DNA from: Campylobacteraceae bacterium
GTDB lineage: Bacteria > Campylobacterota > Campylobacteria > Campylobacterales > Sulfurovaceae
DNA: 42,974 nucleotides
Direction: 5' to 3'
Assembly: GCA_027024155.1 (NCBI GenBank)
Contig: JALVTE010000038.1
Span: 1-42,974, forward strand
In this document: piece by piece, positions 2,738-25,044 of the stretch
How the letters are laid out: the number at the start of each line of letters is the position of its first letter
Position numbering within the stretch: position 1 is the first letter of the stretch
The notes under the pieces: generated by a model
Database searches by the model: none
Told to the model about the DNA's origin: nothing
Seen by the model: the letters and a program-made list of their open reading frames with translations, nothing else
Program-made: the position numbers and the translations under genes

Positions 2738-4462
2738 CTAGATGTTCATAAACAACATACAAAGCCGTATATCATCATATCCGACTTTGCTACCTAATGC
2801 TTCAAACACAGGCTTTAGGCGTAACTTTCCATCATCTGTAAAGTTTTCTGGCATTTTTTTGCTCATAAGTTTAAGAACCACACTCTCTACCTCATCAAAA
2901 AGTTCAGCATTAGGTTTATATTTACTTAAGTCTATCTCTGACTCTTCCTCTTTTATAAGGCTCAAGTGTTGTATAATTGTGCTTTTAGCTAACCCTCTAT
3001 TAGTTGCAAGCTCTATAATAGTGTCGGACTTATCTATCAAGTTTTTTGTCTTTATATGTGTTGGTGTAGCATAAGCAGAGTGCGAAGGTTTGCCAGCTTT
3101 AATATTGGCAATCTCCTCTTCTATCTTCTCTTTTTCTACCACTCCGCCAATGCTCAATATATGCTTTTGGCACAACTGCTCAAAAGCATCTTTACCCAAA
3201 GCTTCTATCGCTTTTTGTGCCTTTATAGAAGCCTGTTTTATACGCTCATCTATATGCAAGATAAGAGGATCAACACGCAAAGCCATAGGGTTTAACCCAA
3301 GCAGACTCAAACCATCTATACTCTTTATTCGCGACAGAGCTACATACCCCTGCCCTACCTCAAAGGTTTTAGAGAGGTCGATTTGTGCAGCATCTAGTGT
3401 CATCCCCTGCGACTTATGTATAGTAATAGCCCAAGCTAGACGCAGTGGCACTTGCGAGACTGTAGCTACAACCTTACCACTCTCGTTTTCTAGCGACCAC
3501 TCTTCTAAATCCAGCTTTACTTTCCTACCCTCGGTAGTAATGACAATAGGCATATTATCTATAGGGCTAAAACTCTGAACCACACCTGTAGTGCCATTGA
3601 CATACTCGCCATCAGGACTATTTTTAATAAAAATAACCAAAGCACCCTTTTTAAGTCGTAACTCCTCTAAAACAAGCGAAGATTTAAAGATTTTCTCTAT
3701 ATTTTTAGCCGAGCCTTTCGCTTCATAAACATAAAGCTTCTCTTCGCCCTCTAACTTATTTAGTTCAGCCAAATTTATACGCTCAACATCTGCATTATGT
3801 GTATAGAGTTGGGTTATTTTTGCATCGCCAGATAAGCTTACATTCATTCTCTCCTCTAATGCTTGTTTACTCTTTTGTCTAATATTTCCAGAGCGTATAT
3901 CATCTAACACATCAATCAGCCTGCTATCGGCTTGTCTAAACTTCTCTTGCAGATAACAAGTCTGTAAATTTAGCTCTCTCCAAGAAGGCGACTGCCAAGC
4001 AAAGCGTTTCTCTTTTGGCTCTTTACTAACAGGTGGCAGCTGAAAAAAGTCTCCAGAAATCACAACCTGCACCCCACCAAAAGGTTCATCTACTCCTTTA
4101 AACCCACGAAGCACCAAATCCATAGAAGTAAACAGCTCAGGAGAGACCATAGAAACCTCATCGATAATAAGAACTTTTAGCTTAGAAAATCGACTCTTAA
4201 GGTACTTCTTCTCCATCAAGTACTCAACATACCCTTCGTCTATACTCTCACGAATCCCCAAAGCAAAAAAAGAGTGAATAGTCTGTCCAGCCAAATGCGA
4301 AGCCGCAATCCCCGTAGGTGCTACAATAGTAGGATAAACCCGACGCTCTTTTAAGTAGCGAGTATAAAGCTTAAGCAAATAAGTCTTACCCGTACCTGCC
4401 GAGCCAGTTATAAAAACATTTTTGCCAGATTTTAATATATTGAGTGCTGTAGTCTGTTTCAT
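2738..4462 (-). CDS. Pif1/RecD-like ATP-dependent DNA helicase with C-terminal HTH region
   Basis: 574 residues. The Walker A motif GSAGTGKT lies at about 20-27, Walker B with IIDEVSMV near 99-106, a glutamine motif GDFFQLPP near 152-159, and the SF1 motifs AITIHKSQGMTLD and GYVALSRI near 345-380. This is the Pif1/RecD2-like SF1B helicase core, moving 5' to 3' on DNA in known relatives. After residue 460 comes a linker and a helix-turn-helix-like segment (ELATNRGLAKSTIIQHLSLI), seen in related bacterial helicases. A TATAAT lies 6 nt before the ATG, so the mRNA probably has no leader. A role in replication or repair is inferred from the family. Confidence 0.9.
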   Translation of the reverse strand: MKQTTALNILKSGKNVFITGSAGTGKTYLLKLYTRYLKERRVYPTIVAPTGIAASHLAGQTIHSFFALGIRESIDEGYVEYLMEKKYLKSRFSKLKVLIIDEVSMVSPELFTSMDLVLRGFKGVDEPFGGVQVVISGDFFQLPPVSKEPKEKRFAWQSPSWRELNLQTCYLQEKFRQADSRLIDVLDDIRSGNIRQKSKQALEERMNVSLSGDAKITQLYTHNADVERINLAELNKLEGEEKLYVYEAKGSAKNIEKIFKSSLVLEELRLKKGALVIFIKNSPDGEYVNGTTGVVQSFSPIDNMPIVITTEGRKVKLDLEEWSLENESGKVVATVSQVPLRLAWAITIHKSQGMTLDAAQIDLSKTFEVGQGYVALSRIKSIDGLSLLGLNPMALRVDPLILHIDERIKQASIKAQKAIEALGKDAFEQLCQKHILSIGGVVEKEKIEEEIANIKAGKPSHSAYATPTHIKTKNLIDKSDTIIELATNRGLAKSTIIQHLSLIKEEESEIDLSKYKPNAELFDEVESVVLKLMSKKMPENFTDDGKLRLKPVFEALGSKVGYDDIRLCMLFMNI

Positions 4463-4468
4463 AGTGAT

Positions 4469-4477
4469 ATTATAGCA
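4469..4477 (-). promoter_or_regulatory. Extended -10 promoter giving a leaderless helicase mRNA
   Basis: Reading the minus strand, TGCTATAAT is followed by only ATCACT and then the ATG at 4462. The expected start of transcription is the A of the start codon. No Shine-Dalgarno site fits in between. Confidence 0.55.
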
Positions 4478-4538
4478 GTTTGTGTTTATGATGACTTTGT
4501 ATTCTATAAATTAACAATACAAAAATTATAAGAGCAAT

Positions 4539-4952
4539 TTATCTTAATATATTCTCTAAAAAACCGCTCTTGAGTGTTCGATAGATGTCGAAATCGCTGT
4601 CTATGCTGGCAATCTGTTTAATATTTTCTTTATGGGCTATATACATTAAAGTTGCATCTGCTAAATCCATTGGTACATTGGTGTAGTTTTGCATCTGTAT
4701 TATTATATCTTCTAAATCACTCTGCTCTATACCGTAGAGAATCACTCCGCCCCTCTCTATCCATTTTAAAAAATCTATTTGTACATTTAAATTAAAATCT
4801 AGCATATGCGAGACTTCTGTAATTACAGCCCAAGAGGTAAGAAGTTTGCCATTATAGTGTTTTAAAAACTCTTTTGTTTTTATATGATACTTATCGCTTC
4901 TGTCAAAAAGTGCGATAAGTGGTCCACTATCTATTAAGATTGTATTTTTCAC
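4539..4952 (-). CDS. PIN-domain ribonuclease, VapC-like toxin
   Basis: 137 residues with the PIN-domain acidic residues in place: D8 in ILIDSGPLIALFD, E47 in VITEVSHML, the LADATLMYIA segment with its D near 98, and D117-D119 in IASIDSDFDIY. PIN toxins of VapBC systems are Mg2+-dependent RNases that cut tRNA or rRNA; the target here is unknown. Its start lies inside the 3' end of the RHH gene (26-nt overlap), the usual antitoxin-first order with translational coupling. Confidence 0.85.
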   Translation of the reverse strand: MKNTILIDSGPLIALFDRSDKYHIKTKEFLKHYNGKLLTSWAVITEVSHMLDFNLNVQIDFLKWIERGGVILYGIEQSDLEDIIIQMQNYTNVPMDLADATLMYIAHKENIKQIASIDSDFDIYRTLKSGFLENILR

Positions 4953-5184
4953 TTAACTTCTCTTTAAGTTTGCTTTTATAAGTAGTTGATAAATTTTGCT
5001 TATTGCTACTATACTTACCAAACAGTTCCTCTCCAAGCTGGTAAGGTGTCTCTTTTTGCTCTTCTTGCATTTTAAAAAGTAAATTAAGAGCCTCTTTAAC
5101 TACATCTGTTTTAGTCTGATTACTCTTTTTTGCATATTTTTGCAGTTTTTTCTCTAATTCATCTGATAAACGCACAGCAAGCAT
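4927..5184 (-). CDS. Ribbon-helix-helix antitoxin (VapB-like)
   Basis: 85 residues. The first 45 read as an RHH/CopG DNA-binding domain: MLAVRLSDELEKKLQKYAKK supplies the beta strand and first helix and TKTDVVKEALNLLF the second helix. The lysine-rich tail (FGKYSSNKQNLSTTYKSKLKEKL) is the part expected to block the PIN toxin encoded next. GAGGAGGT lies before the ATG. An imperfect palindrome at 5203-5221 upstream is a plausible autoregulatory site. Confidence 0.85.
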   Translation of the reverse strand: MLAVRLSDELEKKLQKYAKKSNQTKTDVVKEALNLLFKMQEEQKETPYQLGEELFGKYSSNKQNLSTTYKSKLKEKLSEKYNLNR

Positions 5185-5202
5185 ATCTACCTCCTCTAAC
5201 CT

Positions 5203-5221
5203 GTATTACATATTGTATAAC
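5203..5221. promoter_or_regulatory. Imperfect palindrome, likely VapB operator
   Basis: GTTATACAATATGTAATAC (minus strand) is symmetric in its TACA/TGTA core and GT/AC ends. It overlaps a TATACA -10-like sequence and lies about 20 nt before the RHH start codon, where type II antitoxins usually bind. Confidence 0.4.
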
Positions 5222-5235
5222 AAAACTCTTTAAAT

Positions 5236-6000
5236 TTAATTAAATTCTCTTTTAAACCTCTCCATTATCTCTAAAAACTCTCTACTCAAATACCCATAAA
5301 CCCTCTCTTCTATCTCTTTAGGTACACCATAATAAGCCTCGGCAATTCCTCCGGCTATTGCACCCATAGTATCGGCATCGCCTCCTAACGATACACAATT
5401 ACGAACACAATCCTCAAAAGAGTTAGAGTCTAAAAAGCAGATAATCGACTCTGGCACAGACTTTTGGCACGATACTTCAAACTTGTATGTTGGGCGAATC
5501 TCATCTACTGTTCTACTTAAGTCATACTCAAAATCTTTTGAAATACGCTCTCGTATCTCCTCTTTACTGGCACCTTTTCGAGCCATAAAAATAGCCAATG
5601 CCGTAGCCTCTGCTCCTTTTATTCCCTCTGGGTGATTATGAGTAATTTCAGCAGATTTTCTTGCCTCTTGTAAAACTTTTTCCTCTGTATCAAAAGCCCA
5701 AGCAATTGGCGAAACTCGCATAGCTGAGCCATTACCCCACGAATTATAAGGCAAATGTTCATCACTCTTAAGCCACGCTTTAAACGAACCACCATAACCT
5801 ACTTCGAAATATCGCAAACCAAAATCTACAATATTGTCTAAATATGGCTCATCTTCCAAAATAGACTTAGCTACTGCCATACTTAAGACTGTATCATCTG
5901 TAAATTTACTCTTTGGATGAAAGAGCTCGAACTCTTTTGTTTTTATCTTATGAAACTCATAATAAGAACCTATTATATCTCCTGCTATTGCTCCTAACAT
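5236..6000 (-). CDS. ADP-ribosylglycohydrolase family protein (DraG/ARH-like)
   Basis: 254 residues with the family's metal-binding motifs: GAIAGDIIGSYYEF at the N-terminus, FTDDTVLSMAVAKSI near 33-47, HNHPEGIKGAEATALAIF near 121-138, and GGDADTMGAIAGGIAEAYYG near 207-226. The aspartates of TDDT and GGDAD would bind the two Mg2+ ions. Family members remove ADP-ribose from proteins or small molecules. It is the last gene of the NAD cluster, and its start overlaps the preceding HD-hydrolase gene by 7 nt, so it is translated from the same message. The substrate is not known. Confidence 0.92.
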   Translation of the reverse strand: MLGAIAGDIIGSYYEFHKIKTKEFELFHPKSKFTDDTVLSMAVAKSILEDEPYLDNIVDFGLRYFEVGYGGSFKAWLKSDEHLPYNSWGNGSAMRVSPIAWAFDTEEKVLQEARKSAEITHNHPEGIKGAEATALAIFMARKGASKEEIRERISKDFEYDLSRTVDEIRPTYKFEVSCQKSVPESIICFLDSNSFEDCVRNCVSLGGDADTMGAIAGGIAEAYYGVPKEIEERVYGYLSREFLEIMERFKREFN

Positions 6001-17547: not shown

Positions 17548-18996
17548 CTACTCTTTGCTCATATTTTTAATCTTATCAACAATTTTTACTGCCTCATCAA
17601 GATTTTTCAATGTTATGTCTTTTGATTCTTTATTGTTGGTACCAAATGCTTTATCAGTTGGAACTACAAATATAGATTTTATTGAGTCTATTAGGAAGTC
17701 TCTATATTTGCTATCTGTTCCATCGCGCTCAACTTTTTGCACCAGATCGGAATAAGGTTTTAATGCTAATGATATTGTAGATTTAAAGGCATATTCTTCA
17801 ACAAGTCGTCTTTCTTTAGAGTATCTTGACGTTGCAAAAGAAATTAAGTACACAAGAGGCAAAAGCATTGTAAGTTTTAATAAAATCCACATCCAATCAA
17901 TATTAAGTTTTGCAATTGGTTTGACAAGCATACTTGTGTTTGTATCGACACTCCATCCAACTTTTGTTAATTGGGTATATTGATGAACATTGTTCAAAAA
18001 GTCAGTTATTATGTTCATTGACAACCAAACAGTAGCACCAACACTTAAAATAATTAACCACAACCACAAATTGGATGTTTTTGATAATTGTTTTTTTCTT
18101 TCCTCAAAAGTCGAAAACAAACTAACGCCAACTGCCTTTTCAAGCTGTCTATCAATTTCGTTGGTCTGTTCCTCATTTCTTTGAATTATTTCATCTGTTT
18201 TTTTAGTAAATTCCGATATATCCTGCTTAGCTTTAGATATTATTTCATCTAATTTTTTTTCTGCATCTTCTATGTGTTGATGGTATTCAATAATATCATT
18301 TTTTATATCTTCAATACTTCGATTTGAGTTATTTGCCTCTTCCAAAATCCTTATTGTGTTTTCTTTATTTTCTTTAATTGTCTCTAGTAATGCATTTATT
18401 TGGTTTAATGTTTCTTTAGATATATCAAGGTGTTGTGCAATAGTGGTTCTTTCTTCACTTGCCTCATCAAGTAACTTGTTTATTTTTTCTACCGCTTTTT
18501 CGGACTTATCTTTTAATGTTGATATATATTTTTCTTTATTAGCCACATCTTCTATTACGCTTTTTGCATCAGTCAAAATTGATATTAGCTCTCTATATTC
18601 CGCTATTTTCTCTTTATATCTTGGTATGTTTCTTGCTTCAAAATCTAATCTATTTATTCGTATCTGACCCATCAAATTTTGAGTATGGTCTTGCACATTT
18701 GCAAACTGCTGGCTATTATTGTATATATTTGATATTGCACCATTAATCGTGTTCACAGATTGAAAAATAGAATTCCTTGTGTTATACGGAAGTGTATCAA
18801 AATTTCCATCCTCTATATTTTGTTTTAAAATATCTATAATATCCGGCAAATCATTAAGTAGTTCTTTATAGGTAAATTCATTTCGTTCCGGGATACTCCA
18901 CCTATTTGACATCACTTTTTCATCTAATTTGTGAACAACGTTTTCAAAATTTTCATTCGTAATAATGTCATAAATTTTTTGAGTAGTATTTTTCAT
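17548..18996 (-). CDS. Large coiled-coil protein with two membrane segments, unknown function
   Basis: 482 residues, no family named with confidence. Residues 60-300 are strongly heptad-like, with long helices such as KEKYISTLKDKSEKAVEKINKL and KKLDEIISKAKQDISEFTKK. Two hydrophobic segments follow, LWLWLIILSVGATVWLSM near 310-327 and WMWILLKLTMLLPLVYLISF near 368-387, with about 40 residues between. After them RLVEEYAFKSTISLALKPY resembles a short motif I recall from other bacterial membrane coiled-coil proteins of unknown function. It is first inside the left end of the island. A membrane effector or sensor is possible but unproven. Confidence 0.6.
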   Translation of the reverse strand: MKNTTQKIYDIITNENFENVVHKLDEKVMSNRWSIPERNEFTYKELLNDLPDIIDILKQNIEDGNFDTLPYNTRNSIFQSVNTINGAISNIYNNSQQFANVQDHTQNLMGQIRINRLDFEARNIPRYKEKIAEYRELISILTDAKSVIEDVANKEKYISTLKDKSEKAVEKINKLLDEASEERTTIAQHLDISKETLNQINALLETIKENKENTIRILEEANNSNRSIEDIKNDIIEYHQHIEDAEKKLDEIISKAKQDISEFTKKTDEIIQRNEEQTNEIDRQLEKAVGVSLFSTFEERKKQLSKTSNLWLWLIILSVGATVWLSMNIITDFLNNVHQYTQLTKVGWSVDTNTSMLVKPIAKLNIDWMWILLKLTMLLPLVYLISFATSRYSKERRLVEEYAFKSTISLALKPYSDLVQKVERDGTDSKYRDFLIDSIKSIFVVPTDKAFGTNNKESKDITLKNLDEAVKIVDKIKNMSKE

Positions 18997-19177: not shown

Positions 19178-19570
19178 TCAAAACCAATTTTCAACTCTTA
19201 AACCATCTACCCTAATAAACTCTTTTGTATTCCTTGTAACCAAAGTTAAATTGTTGGCTTTTGCACAGCCTGCGATTAAAGTATCTATTGGTCCAATAGG
19301 GGTGCCGAGTTTTTCTAAATTGGCTCTGATTGCTGCAGCTTCTTTTGCTTCTTTTTTACCAAAATCTATAATCTTTATCTGCTCTAGTAAAAGATTTAAC
19401 TGCTCTCTTCTTTTTGCAGGGCTATTTGATTTTGCAATTCCAACTTCTAACTCATATACCACAATAGATGGAATAAAAATCTCTTTTGGAGAGTGCAAAA
19501 AGAGATTATTTGCCACCTCTCCCATTCCTTTAAAAAAATAGATAACGCTGTTTGTATCTAGCAAATACAT
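19178..19570 (-). CDS. PIN-domain ribonuclease, VapC toxin
   Basis: 130 residues of the classical VapC type: MYLLDTNSVIYFFKG with the first Asp, VVYELEVGIAKS with the Glu, and PIGPIDTLIAGCAKANNLTLVTRNTKEF with the later acidic residues. These enzymes cut structured RNA when freed from VapB. The ATG directly follows the antitoxin stop (TAA-ATG), so translation is coupled. It lies in the island, where such a pair can help maintain the element. It is unlike the PIN protein at 4539 in detail, so the two pairs are not recent duplicates. Confidence 0.9.
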   Translation of the reverse strand: MYLLDTNSVIYFFKGMGEVANNLFLHSPKEIFIPSIVVYELEVGIAKSNSPAKRREQLNLLLEQIKIIDFGKKEAKEAAAIRANLEKLGTPIGPIDTLIAGCAKANNLTLVTRNTKEFIRVDGLRVENWF

Positions 19571-21702: not shown

Positions 21703-23445
21703 TTATATTCTGATTGTAGATTCTACACCTATAGCATTTTTTACTTCCCAGTTATATTCATTCATTAATCTTACCATTTCATCATAAACCTGTGCCCCTT
21801 CATCTAAAGCTCTTATTGTCATTATAACTGAAAATGACTGCTTAAAATCACTATCAGGTGTAAACCCCTCGCGTGTAATCATTTTTACTTGAAGTTTCCA
21901 ATTTTCTACATCAACACCTTGAGGAAATTTCTTGTGATATACTTTAATTGGCGACCATTTATATCTTCCGCCTATAAGTTCATATTCAAAGCCAGATTTT
22001 TCAGCTGGTATTTTATTGCTAAATGTACCATCTTCTTTAACTTCACCAAGACCTGCCTCAATATTTACTAAGCAATATTCAAATGCTCTATCAGGATCAA
22101 CGGGAGGATCATAAGCTACTGTCATAAAAAACTCACCTTTTACTTTTCCATTAGGTAACCGCATTGATGGTACTATAGGAAAAGGTAGCTTATGGATTAC
22201 TTCTCTATTACTCGCTATTTCACCCTCAAAAATAACTGTAATTTCATTCTCATCACAATATAAAATTTCATCAGCTTCTTGCGGTTTACCCCACCCAAAA
22301 TATGCTCTATGATCATTATCAATATCATGGTGTAGTTTTGCAGAATGAGCAAGCATTCCTTTAATAATATATCGTGGGGTATCTTCTCCCATTCTTTTCC
22401 ATAGATTAGCTGTTATAGAAGAAACCAAAGGAGTGGAAAAACTTGTTCCTCTATCTGATGCCATTACGCAAGTTGTCTCATTGCCTGCTACAGATTTAAT
22501 TCCCAAAGGTATTGTTCCTCCATAATGAATGAGGTCTGGCTTTAGAATTAAATTTGCAATTGGACCACTTCTTGAATAGCAAGAAGGTTCATTCAAACCA
22601 ATCGTACCTGGTATTTCAACATGCGACATTGCAGCTACACATATTCCCATAACAGAATCTCCAGGGGAAGAGATTCTTTGCTCATTTTTAGGACAATCAG
22701 CAGAAGGAGGCCAAGTTCTAAGATTCCTTCTGTCATTAATATTCCCTGCCGATATAACACAAATACAGTTATTTTCTTCTTGAAATTTGTCTAACCAAAT
22801 AGCAAAATCTGAAATTTTATGCATAGAAACAGGACTATCTTCTCCAAGTGAAAGATTCCATACTTTAATATCAGGATTACTTTGCCGCACCCTTTCCATC
22901 ATATCTTTGATTTCAGGGAAACTTGCACCTTTTCGACCTAATACTCCAATTGAAAAAACTTTTGATTGGCTTTTTGGAAAATCTGGATGACCATTGTAAA
23001 AATATCCATTAGTTATTAACCCTGATACAAAGGTGCCATGACTATAATCTCTATCCTCTTCAATAATGGCGGTCTCTTCCCCTGCTAACCAAGGTCTAAT
23101 TAAAGTACAGTCCGTTTTTACTGATGTATCAACTACTGCCACAACAGGATAATCAATATCATCTTCTGGTATTGGTACATTTGAGGGTAAAGGATCAGCT
23201 TCTTCTATATTCATGGGTTGTATAAAAATAGATTGTGCTTTTTGAACTGAAAACAATATCGCTCTTTCTTGTAAAGCATGTATAAAATGATTAATATTAT
23301 CTTGTTCATCATTAGTAATATAATATATATATGGATCATCTAAAACAAGTGTATGGGCTATATTATACTCTTCTACAAGAGTTATAAATTTAATATTAAT
23401 TTCTTCTTGCAACTCCTCTTCTTTAAGAGAAATTAATCGTACCAA
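21703..23445 (-). CDS. Subtilisin-like serine protease (S8), IetS-type, main part
   Basis: 580 residues in this frame. The catalytic triad is visible: D106 in VAVVDTSVK, H136 in DYSHGTFVSGLI and S335 in DRGTSFSTPLVSS, with the oxyanion Asn in ISAGNIND. The C-terminal 230 residues are beta-rich. S8 proteases paired with an AAA ATPase are the IetAS toxin-antitoxin/anti-phage system. The frame begins only at a TTG (23445) with no Shine-Dalgarno site, right after an A8 tract and inside the 3' end of the 159-aa frame. I infer one protein of about 736 residues made by frameshift, or a real break. Confidence 0.85.
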   Translation of the reverse strand: MVRLISLKEEELQEEINIKFITLVEEYNIAHTLVLDDPYIYYITNDEQDNINHFIHALQERAILFSVQKAQSIFIQPMNIEEADPLPSNVPIPEDDIDYPVVAVVDTSVKTDCTLIRPWLAGEETAIIEEDRDYSHGTFVSGLITNGYFYNGHPDFPKSQSKVFSIGVLGRKGASFPEIKDMMERVRQSNPDIKVWNLSLGEDSPVSMHKISDFAIWLDKFQEENNCICVISAGNINDRRNLRTWPPSADCPKNEQRISSPGDSVMGICVAAMSHVEIPGTIGLNEPSCYSRSGPIANLILKPDLIHYGGTIPLGIKSVAGNETTCVMASDRGTSFSTPLVSSITANLWKRMGEDTPRYIIKGMLAHSAKLHHDIDNDHRAYFGWGKPQEADEILYCDENEITVIFEGEIASNREVIHKLPFPIVPSMRLPNGKVKGEFFMTVAYDPPVDPDRAFEYCLVNIEAGLGEVKEDGTFSNKIPAEKSGFEYELIGGRYKWSPIKVYHKKFPQGVDVENWKLQVKMITREGFTPDSDFKQSFSVIMTIRALDEGAQVYDEMVRLMNEYNWEVKNAIGVESTIRI

Positions 23446-23912
23446 AATTTTTTTTCATTTTCAATATCTATCTTTGGCTCATAGGGTTTGATACTTTTTA
23501 CCGTAGATAGTTCACTTTTTAAATTTTCATTAGTATCAATATTGTTAATTTTTTCTTCTAATAATTCTAAACCTTGCCGGCTTACCCTAATTAAGAACTC
23601 TCCTGTACTATCACTACCTAAACCGATGTCTCCTACAAATGGGCAGGTTCTACTATTAAAAATACTGGTTGGTCTATGTGATTTAGCTAATGCTTCCTTT
23701 TCAATTTCCACGATTGCCAAAGTTGCAGGTATACCATTTGAGACAATATACTCTTTAATTCCAGAAATTTCGTTAATTATTTCTTCTTTGAAATTACTGT
23801 TTACATCTTTAAATCTCTTTTTTGAACCACCGCCAGATACTATGCTAACACCCTTGTCTTTTGCTGAAAACTTTACATGTTTGACAGGTCTATCAAATCT
23901 ACTATTAGGCAT
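23433..23912 (-). CDS. 159-aa protein, probable N-terminal domain of the IetS-type protease in another frame
   Basis: The start MPNSRFDRPVKHVKFSAKDKG and the block ALAKSHRPTSIFNSRTCPF with GDIGLG, then EFLIRVSRQGLELLEEK, look like the N-terminal region I recall on IetS-type subtilases, rather than a free protein. It overlaps the AAA ATPase stop by 8 nt at its start. The frame ends at a TAA 12 nt after GAA-AAA-AAA. A one-base backward slip on A-AAA-AAA would join residue 155 to the protease frame through Ile-Leu-Val. It may also act alone as a third component. Confidence 0.6.
   Translation of the reverse strand: MPNSRFDRPVKHVKFSAKDKGVSIVSGGGSKKRFKDVNSNFKEEIINEISGIKEYIVSNGIPATLAIVEIEKEALAKSHRPTSIFNSRTCPFVGDIGLGSDSTGEFLIRVSRQGLELLEEKINNIDTNENLKSELSTVKSIKPYEPKIDIENEKKFWYD
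23448..23455 (-). other. A8 tract at the junction of the two protease frames (candidate frameshift site)
   Basis: On the minus strand, GAA-AAA-AAA-TTT-TGG contains eight consecutive A, including the slippery heptamer A-AAA-AAA in the zero frame. Adding one A or slipping back one base joins the 159-aa frame to the protease frame. Homopolymer phase variation or a sequencing error would have the same effect. Confidence 0.6.
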
Positions 23913-25044
23913 TTACTTTTTCCTCTCTCAATACAGTAGCGATACGCTGTTTAGATAATCCAAAAATTAATCCGATTTTCTCTGCAGATAAATTATTGAA
24001 TTTTTCTTTAACTTTTAAAATATCATATTTTCGATTTCTTTTTATAAATGTTATATCTGGGTATAAGTTGGATACAAGCAACTGCAAAAGTCTATTTTCT
24101 TTTTCATTCTTGCCATAATCATTTAAAATACATTCTCGTTTATATTCAAATACTATATTTTCAATCTCTGCACCACTAATACCTTCTGATATATCTGAAA
24201 ATAGATTTAACACTTTGGAAGAAATAGAACCTTGTAGCCACTTAGTAGCAATATCTTTTCGTGATTCTCTATTTGGCAATGGAACTTCTATTTTATATTG
24301 AAATCTTCTCCATACAGCACGATCTAACAAATGCGGATGATTTGTAGCAGCGATTAAAATAACATTATCTAAAGCATCAATATTTTGTAATAAACTAACT
24401 ACAACCCTTTTTAATTCACCAACTTCATTTGAATCATCTCTACCTTTGGCTAAAGCATCAAACTCATCTAAAAATAAAACGCATTCTCTTTCTTTAGCAT
24501 AGTCCATCAACATTCTAATATTTTTAGATGTAGAACCGAGATAAGATGATACTAATGCATCAGATCTTGCAGTTATAAGAGGTAAAGATAATTTAGCTGC
24601 TATATATGCAGCCAATTTACTCTTCCCTGTTCCTGGTTCTCCATATAAAAGTATAGTAGGATTAATAGGAATACCTTTTGTCTCTAACTTATCTCTATGA
24701 TTTAGATTTATTAAAAATTGTTCAACTTTTGTTTCAATATGCTCAGGTAATGCTAACCATATATCATTTTCAGAAAAAGTTTCATAATCCGCAAGGGGAA
24801 ATCTATTATCTTTTTCTACAGGTATTGGCTTTTGATAAAGAGCATTTTGTGTATATGTATTATTGGATATTATTTTATTGTTTAATTTTATTTTTAGTGC
24901 TTTAGCTTCGTCTTTCTCACCATTCTTCTCAAGTTGGCTCACTAACATTTTAATTTGGGATACTAATTTCTTCTTATCTCCAGCTAAGCCATAGTCTATT
25001 ATATGTGATATTTCTGAAAAATAATTCATTTGCTGTTCCCTCAT
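23905..25044 (-). CDS. AAA+ ATPase, IetA-type
   Basis: 379 residues. An N-terminal helical region of about 95 residues is followed by an FtsH/Cdc48-like AAA module: GEPGTGKS Walker A (135-142), VLFLDEFDAL Walker B (189-198), ATN sensor 1 (233-235) and the Arg finger DRAVWRRF (241-248). The tail ends with a helix-turn-helix-like LSAEKIGLIFGLSKQRIATVL. Its partner is the downstream subtilase. In IetAS the ATPase is the antitoxin-like part and the protease the toxin. Genes overlap by 8 nt. The 255-nt gap 25045-25299 downstream of the 101-aa gene is AT-rich and shows no gene. Confidence 0.88.
   Translation of the reverse strand: MREQQMNYFSEISHIIDYGLAGDKKKLVSQIKMLVSQLEKNGEKDEAKALKIKLNNKIISNNTYTQNALYQKPIPVEKDNRFPLADYETFSENDIWLALPEHIETKVEQFLINLNHRDKLETKGIPINPTILLYGEPGTGKSKLAAYIAAKLSLPLITARSDALVSSYLGSTSKNIRMLMDYAKERECVLFLDEFDALAKGRDDSNEVGELKRVVVSLLQNIDALDNVILIAATNHPHLLDRAVWRRFQYKIEVPLPNRESRKDIATKWLQGSISSKVLNLFSDISEGISGAEIENIVFEYKRECILNDYGKNEKENRLLQLLVSNLYPDITFIKRNRKYDILKVKEKFNNLSAEKIGLIFGLSKQRIATVLREEKVNA

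Follow-up and report, generated by a model that had tools for sequence, protein, structure and literature searches.

The closest described relatives of the locus reported here are the IetAS (IteAS) pairs, represented by PADLOC profiles PDLC02196 and PDLC02197 and NCBIfam models NF042959 and NF042956, with ietAS of Agrobacterium Ti plasmids and S026-S025 of Salmonella Genomic Island 1 as named examples. In related pairs the protease acts as a toxin that is neutralised by the ATPase (PMC8562856; PMC5006074). Two further precedents concern poly-A runs: the pseudo-pseudogenes, described alongside insertion sequence (IS) elements with 8–9 A (PMC1088944), and Citrobacter rodentium tssM1 with its A11 run (PMC4256274). 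The locus in question lies in the window, a stretch of 42,974 nucleotides (nt) from a Campylobacteraceae bacterium (contig JALVTE010000038.1), whose genome is a 2.15-Mb draft of 123 contigs, 97.5% complete; composition statistics below come from 495 kb sampled from it. We found that it shares with the known pairs the ATPase-protease order, the overlapping genes, an IetA-type AAA+ ATPase, the IetS N-terminal region and an intact active site, but differs from them in that ietS lies in two frames and the sequence is divergent. It is most likely a variant of a known gene and not a new kind of system. Our tentative preference, falling slightly short of an even judgement, is that it represents an OFF allele of a toxic protease, recent in origin, leaky and reversible in principle, of the pseudo-pseudogene type and with IetA intact, rather than an evolved programmed frameshift. 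The features concerned are the following:

23905..25029, minus strand: ietA, AAA+ ATPase of 374 amino acids (aa) from the likely ATG at 25029 (PADLOC IetA PDLC02196, NCBIfam IteA NF042959, Shine-Dalgarno GAGGG, N-termini of homologues)
25044-23905, minus strand: longest open frame of ietA
23433..23912, minus strand: 5' part of ietS, 159 aa, N-terminal subdomain with the AKSHRPT motif and its own Shine-Dalgarno GAGAGGA before the ATG (PDLC02197, NF042956, alignment)
23448..23455, minus strand: A8 tract, GAA-AAA-AAA-TTT (sequence, three-frame translation)
21703..23445, minus strand: 3' part of ietS, 580 aa from a TTG, with the second N-terminal subdomain, the S8 catalytic domain and a C-terminal beta region (PDLC02197, Pfam Peptidase_S8)
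23412..23436 (approximate span), minus strand: hairpin UUAAUUUCUCUU-AAAG-AAGAGGAGUU, beginning about 11 nt past the A8 tract

The ATPase gene comes first on the minus strand and the protease is adjacent on the same strand, with overlaps of 8 nt between ietA and the 159-aa frame (whose start lies over the ietA stop) and of 13 nt between the 159-aa and 580-aa frames. An earlier note on this DNA had described an ATPase, a 159-aa frame and an S8 protease frame with just these overlaps, a GAA-AAA-AAA run of eight A, found here at 23448-23455, and a protease frame that opens at a TTG lacking a ribosome site. All of this is present in the sequence: the TTG has no Shine-Dalgarno, and the ATG codons of the 159-aa frame and of ietA at 25029 both have one. 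Only the ietA start at 25044 needs revision, probably to 25029, since homologues of IetA open with M-(K/N)YF-E-I.

As for the identity of the locus, profile matches assign it to the IetAS family, in which phage defence or toxin-antitoxin activity has been established for related pairs (PMC8562856; PMC5006074). The ATPase matches PDLC02196 at 2.1e-122 over residues 6-376 and NF042959 at 2.2e-112 (376 bits, cut-off 510). The 159-aa frame corresponds to positions 5-149 of the 749-aa IetS profile PDLC02197 (8.7e-30) and the 580-aa frame to positions 159-748 (9.5e-169), while in NF042956 (460 bits, cut-off 900) the two frames occupy positions 2-138 and 157-743. Both bit scores fall below the NCBI equivalog cut-offs, thus the locus should be regarded as a divergent member of the family. 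The 580-aa frame also matches Pfam Peptidase_S8 (7e-25) and carries the catalytic D106, H136 and S335 as well as the oxyanion N235. Since the two frames match the same IetS models independently, at adjacent and non-overlapping profile positions, the agreement exceeds chance as judged from these matches, and the frames are best described as two parts of one IetS. The N-terminal region of about 150 aa is therefore present but in a different frame, and it would belong to the same polypeptide only after a slip or with an extra A. A whole-genome profile search returned the same two pieces and no further IetS copy. The earlier proposal of an IetAS-like locus is thereby borne out, and so is its prediction that one base backward, or one extra A, yields about 736 residues with the triad retained: the fused frame is 736 aa long and joined as ...ENEKK-I-LVRL....

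In the protease frame the overlap is divided as TGA-AAA-AAA-ATT-TTG, and in the frame of the 159-aa part as GAA-AAA-AAA-TTT-TGG-TAC-GAT-TAA. It is bounded by the TGA in the -1 frame and the TAA at 23433-23435, and so a join can occur only within A8T4GGTACGATTAA. The A8 run is the only slippery stretch there; it contains the heptamer A_AAA_AAA in the phase required for a -1 slip, and on reading-frame grounds it is the only sensible place to join the two frames. By analogy, a run of this composition should be prone to slippage: slippage by E. coli RNA polymerase is detectable only once a run reaches 8 A (PMC6260861), and in Deinococcus and Nostoc, IS elements whose runs have 8 A seem to be productive (PMC1088944).

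Homologues show where the break falls. The intact Vibrio homologue (726 aa, 41–42% identical) reads the junction region in one frame, with ...YSPSISIPEGEESGIIVRLF... opposite ...YEPKIDIENEKKILVRLI... of the fused window protein, and viral-contig homologues (38–39% identical) likewise span both parts in a single frame. The earlier note had held that homologues aligning to the 580-aa frame alone would speak against a split gene; the opposite was observed, as the homologues cover both frames. In a survey of 40 viral-contig and 12 other loci we found no other gene with profile matches in two frames; two loci of this survey (L136 and L141) have shorter or truncated frames, the frame of Fusobacterium vincentii (L147) is shorter and lacks the N-terminal part, and one surveyed ietS (L142) turned out to carry its N-terminal part in another frame. 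Apart from one sibling case, all other full-length homologues recovered have the junction region in a single frame. In an alignment of 21 sequences the junction lies in a block of variable length that separates the IxxIEPY strand from the VRLF strand and comprises between 0 and about 20 residues. The predicted Vibrio structure (predicted local distance difference test score, pLDDT, 82; predicted template modelling score, pTM, 0.88) shows two alpha/beta subdomains separated by a coil at residues 142-149 and, after them, the S8 domain; its best structural match is 3afg, a subtilase solved with its N-terminal propeptide. This model was built from the 21 sequences; one built from 4 sequences (pLDDT 42) was set aside. 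Since the join falls in the coil between the N-terminal subdomains, the break would be structurally silent once the frame is restored.

The same position invites the idea of a two-chain IetS: translation of the 580-aa frame would begin independently at the TTG, or follow termination-reinitiation across the 13 overlapping nt, and the resulting protease would associate with the 159-aa polypeptide. With the break in a coil each chain would hold a whole set of domains, and the stop and the TTG lie within 13 nt of each other. However, the TTG, devoid of a Shine-Dalgarno, is merely the first possible start past the in-frame TGA, and a two-chain organization was seen in no homologue recovered. We consider this the least probable of the explanations discussed here.

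The protease half of the gene is constrained. Across 353 protease codons compared with a 90%-identical copy from a Campylobacterales metagenome-assembled genome (MAG), nonsynonymous and synonymous divergence (dN/dS) amounts to approximately 0.05/0.34–0.59, i.e., a ratio of approximately 0.09–0.16, and changes polarised by the Vibrio sequence number 9 on each branch. The low ratio and the even distribution of changes imply that selection constrained the protease half until recently or continues to do so. There is also no second stop or frameshift in the 2.2 kb of ietS; in the absence of selection, as little as about 2.7% substitutions would produce one or more stops with 95% probability, and the stop-free length therefore bounds the neutral age of the split. 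From the sequence, the split looks recent or the gene still functional.

According to the reading that we prefer, ietA and ietS would form one operon in which a one-base change in the length of the A tract has occurred in the flexible linker between the first and second N-terminal subdomains. The A8 state would be OFF: ribosomes would make IetA and a 159-aa stub, stopping a few codons past the tract. Full-length IetS, with 736 aa and its active site intact, would require either a one-base slip, undergone by a minority of transcripts or ribosomes, or the gain of an A in a descendant. The locus has what defines a pseudo-pseudogene, namely a single shift at an A/T run in an otherwise intact and constrained gene. 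With the pseudo-pseudogenes (PMC1088944) and tssM1 (PMC4256274) it shares the single-base shift at poly-A, the absence of other damage, the stop just downstream and the restoration of the protein by an extra A; in contrast, their runs comprise 9–11 A and slippage of tssM1 was measured, whereas the window run has 8 A and is known from sequence alone. The sequences themselves show the split, the homology of its two halves to one protein, the linker position, the constrained protease half, the lack of other lesions and the independent single-A lesions of other ietS genes; slippage at the tract, the recency of the allele and its reversibility are what we infer.

Several findings weigh against this reading. 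In 495 kb of the assembly, 38 A8 runs and one 9-base run (A/T) lie inside intact open reading frames (ORFs); A8 is thus common in intact genes and need not slip much. Among 353 sampled genes sense-strand A9 or longer runs are absent, compared with about 29 expected from synonymous shuffling, which makes the presumed A9 'ON' allele unusual. No second allele of the window ietS was found in the genomes searched, and the MAG copy breaks off before the A tract at an assembly gap. Moreover, one-base homopolymer lesions are the commonest random mutations and the commonest assembly errors.

Those errors bring up the possibility that the true run is not A8 and that ietS is intact. The assembly is a draft in 123 contigs, and sequencing and assembly errors concentrate in homopolymers. 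Against such an error stand the 39 runs of 8–9 A/T within intact frames mentioned above, and the fact that ietS alone, among the seven same-strand ORF pairs located at runs of this kind, proved to be a single gene in two frames. Four of the seven are separate normal genes (birA/fmt, pdxJ/pdxA, a glycosyltransferase and a flippase, and two different glycosyltransferases), and two pairs were identified only by half or less. In addition, the implied in-frame A9 would be of the kind missing from the sampled genes. A systematic homopolymer error is therefore unlikely and a single error possible; overall, we give an assembly or sequencing origin a small chance.

The avoidance of long runs extends to shorter ones. 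The window contains 7 A8/T8 runs against 26 expected by shuffling, and the 353 sampled genes contain 38 sense-strand A8 runs against 73 expected and 118 phase-correct A_AAA_AAA heptamers against 217 expected. Long A runs are selected against in coding DNA of this genome, as reported for AT-rich genomes (PMC1088944).

The strongest competitor to a leaky allele is a plain pseudogene: the toxic protease would have been knocked out by a chance insertion or deletion of one base in the A tract, hardly any slippage would occur, and the locus would be decaying while IetA remains. Loss of function would be tolerated while the ATPase stays, because the toxic IetS of related pairs is counteracted by its ATPase (PMC8562856; PMC5006074). 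The homologues lack a conserved A tract, and other ietS genes are broken too. That of plasmid pRi2659 (L151:2681) is split into two annotated genes by a single additional A, with A6 where the intact gene of pRi1724 (L152) has A5, while in an Enterococcus faecium plasmid (L149) an IS256-family element occupies positions 4030-5356 within ietS and ietA is intact. TIR-domain genes adjoin ietAS in this plasmid and in its intact sibling (L148). On the other side are the lack of a second lesion in 2.2 kb and the purifying selection without acceleration, both of which merely limit the age of the loss. We regard a plain pseudogene as unlikely, yet as an explanation to be taken seriously.

A further broken ietS was found in one of two 99%-identical contigs of fusobacterial-type prophages, L142 and L143, the former of metagenomic origin; their fusobacterial origin is suggested by composition and by the nearest hits among plasmids. 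In L143, ietS has A8 and is intact over 778 aa, whereas in L142 it has A9 and stops after 134 aa. The two loci (L142:4244-6581 and L143:4245-6581) show few other differences. Together with pRi2659, this pair demonstrates that single-A lesions in ietS recur, in agreement with the reported toxicity of the protease without its ATPase (PMC8562856; PMC5006074). As in the window, the frame depends on one A more or less in the N-terminal part of ietS, yet the tract lies about 30 residues nearer the N-terminus and identity to the window protein is about 25%. One could envisage a convergent on/off or dosage switch in which single-A changes, or slippage, at N-terminal A tracts determine how much IetS is made; the window (A8 OFF) and the fusobacterial-type pair (A8 ON, A9 OFF) would be independent cases of it. 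We find this improbable. Phase variation as such is possible. In Campylobacter jejuni, also a member of Campylobacterota, a coding A tract likewise sets the frame of flgR (PMC3930126), although the window locus is known from one allele.

Evolved programmed recoding, whether by ribosomes slipping by -1 at A_AAA_AAA or by slippage during transcription of A8, would yield the 159-aa stub and the 736-aa protease in a fixed ratio and keep the toxic protease scarce. The 159-aa stub may then be functional, by analogy with the two forms of C. rodentium TssM1, both of which are needed (PMC4256274). The in-phase heptamer, the tight stops on both sides, the join exactly at a domain boundary and the downstream hairpin are all compatible with this. 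Yet the heptamer, present in phase 118 times in 353 genes, is not rare. The hairpin (-9.3 kcal/mol, z about -1.3) is matched in strength by 5% of synonymous shuffles (p about 0.05) and by 16% of coding windows of the three genes, and its spacer of about 11 nt exceeds the usual 5–9 nt (PMC5009743); being near background and too far from the tract, it is probably no strong stimulator. No Shine-Dalgarno was found upstream of the slip site, and no RNA families or tRNAs were detected.

The tract itself is not conserved. The A run at the junction is absent from the single-frame homologues aligned, the split is no family-wide trait, and the exact tract pattern, with 0–2 extra bases allowed, does not occur in the viral contigs. 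Near homologues other than the window gene were absent from 60 relatives, 175 family genomes and about 400 phylum genomes, except for the Campylobacterales MAG (L035, G552), which carries residues 228-580 on one contig and the ietA start on another. A class-level search around the Vibrio genome gave nothing beyond that genome at E 1e-60, and E. coli genomes searched with a related plasmid ietS gave no match. The earlier note suggested that programmed frameshifting or phase variation may limit the protease; both are possible, though little favoured by the unconserved tract, the weak hairpin, the lack of a second allele and the absence of A9 from the sampled genes. We judge evolved recoding to be very unlikely.

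If full-length IetS does arise by slippage or by switching of tract length, a self-toxic protease would be kept low or confined to a subpopulation while the ATPase is retained, and a convergent switch, if true, would mean population heterogeneity in a costly defence. If the split is merely a recent lesion, the case is an ordinary one. In the literature searched we found no description of A-tract control of IetAS. Annotation pipelines and defence-system finders would list the locus as broken, or as a 580-aa protease to which a spurious TTG start has been assigned. The A8/A9 pair of the fusobacterial-type prophages makes the question of tract control directly testable.

With regard to the genomic neighbourhood, hemB and the genes above it are common to other members of the genus, while the DNA just below 26.98 kb is not, which places ietAS in a variable segment. 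In the MAG relative, ietAS is flanked by cytochrome-type genes on one side and by a RecQ-type-helicase-like gene (judged by eye) on the other. As the flanking genes differ between the window and the MAG, ietAS looks mobile. The same variable segment of the window encodes a VapC-like PIN-domain toxin (19178-19570, minus strand; NF047863 at 1e-38, just under the cut-off) and a 482-aa coiled-coil protein (17548-18996, minus strand) with likely membrane stretches and only weak ZorA/SMC-like matches. Among the plasmid loci surveyed, that of Cupriavidus (L150:322-5519) carries a gene for an ATP-binding protein, one S8 protease annotated as two genes and another S8 gene, and may be a broken or rearranged IetS-like locus. 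In an Acidovorax plasmid (L039:673-5257), ietAS lies beside a Shedu nuclease gene and an integrase gene, forming a small defence cluster.

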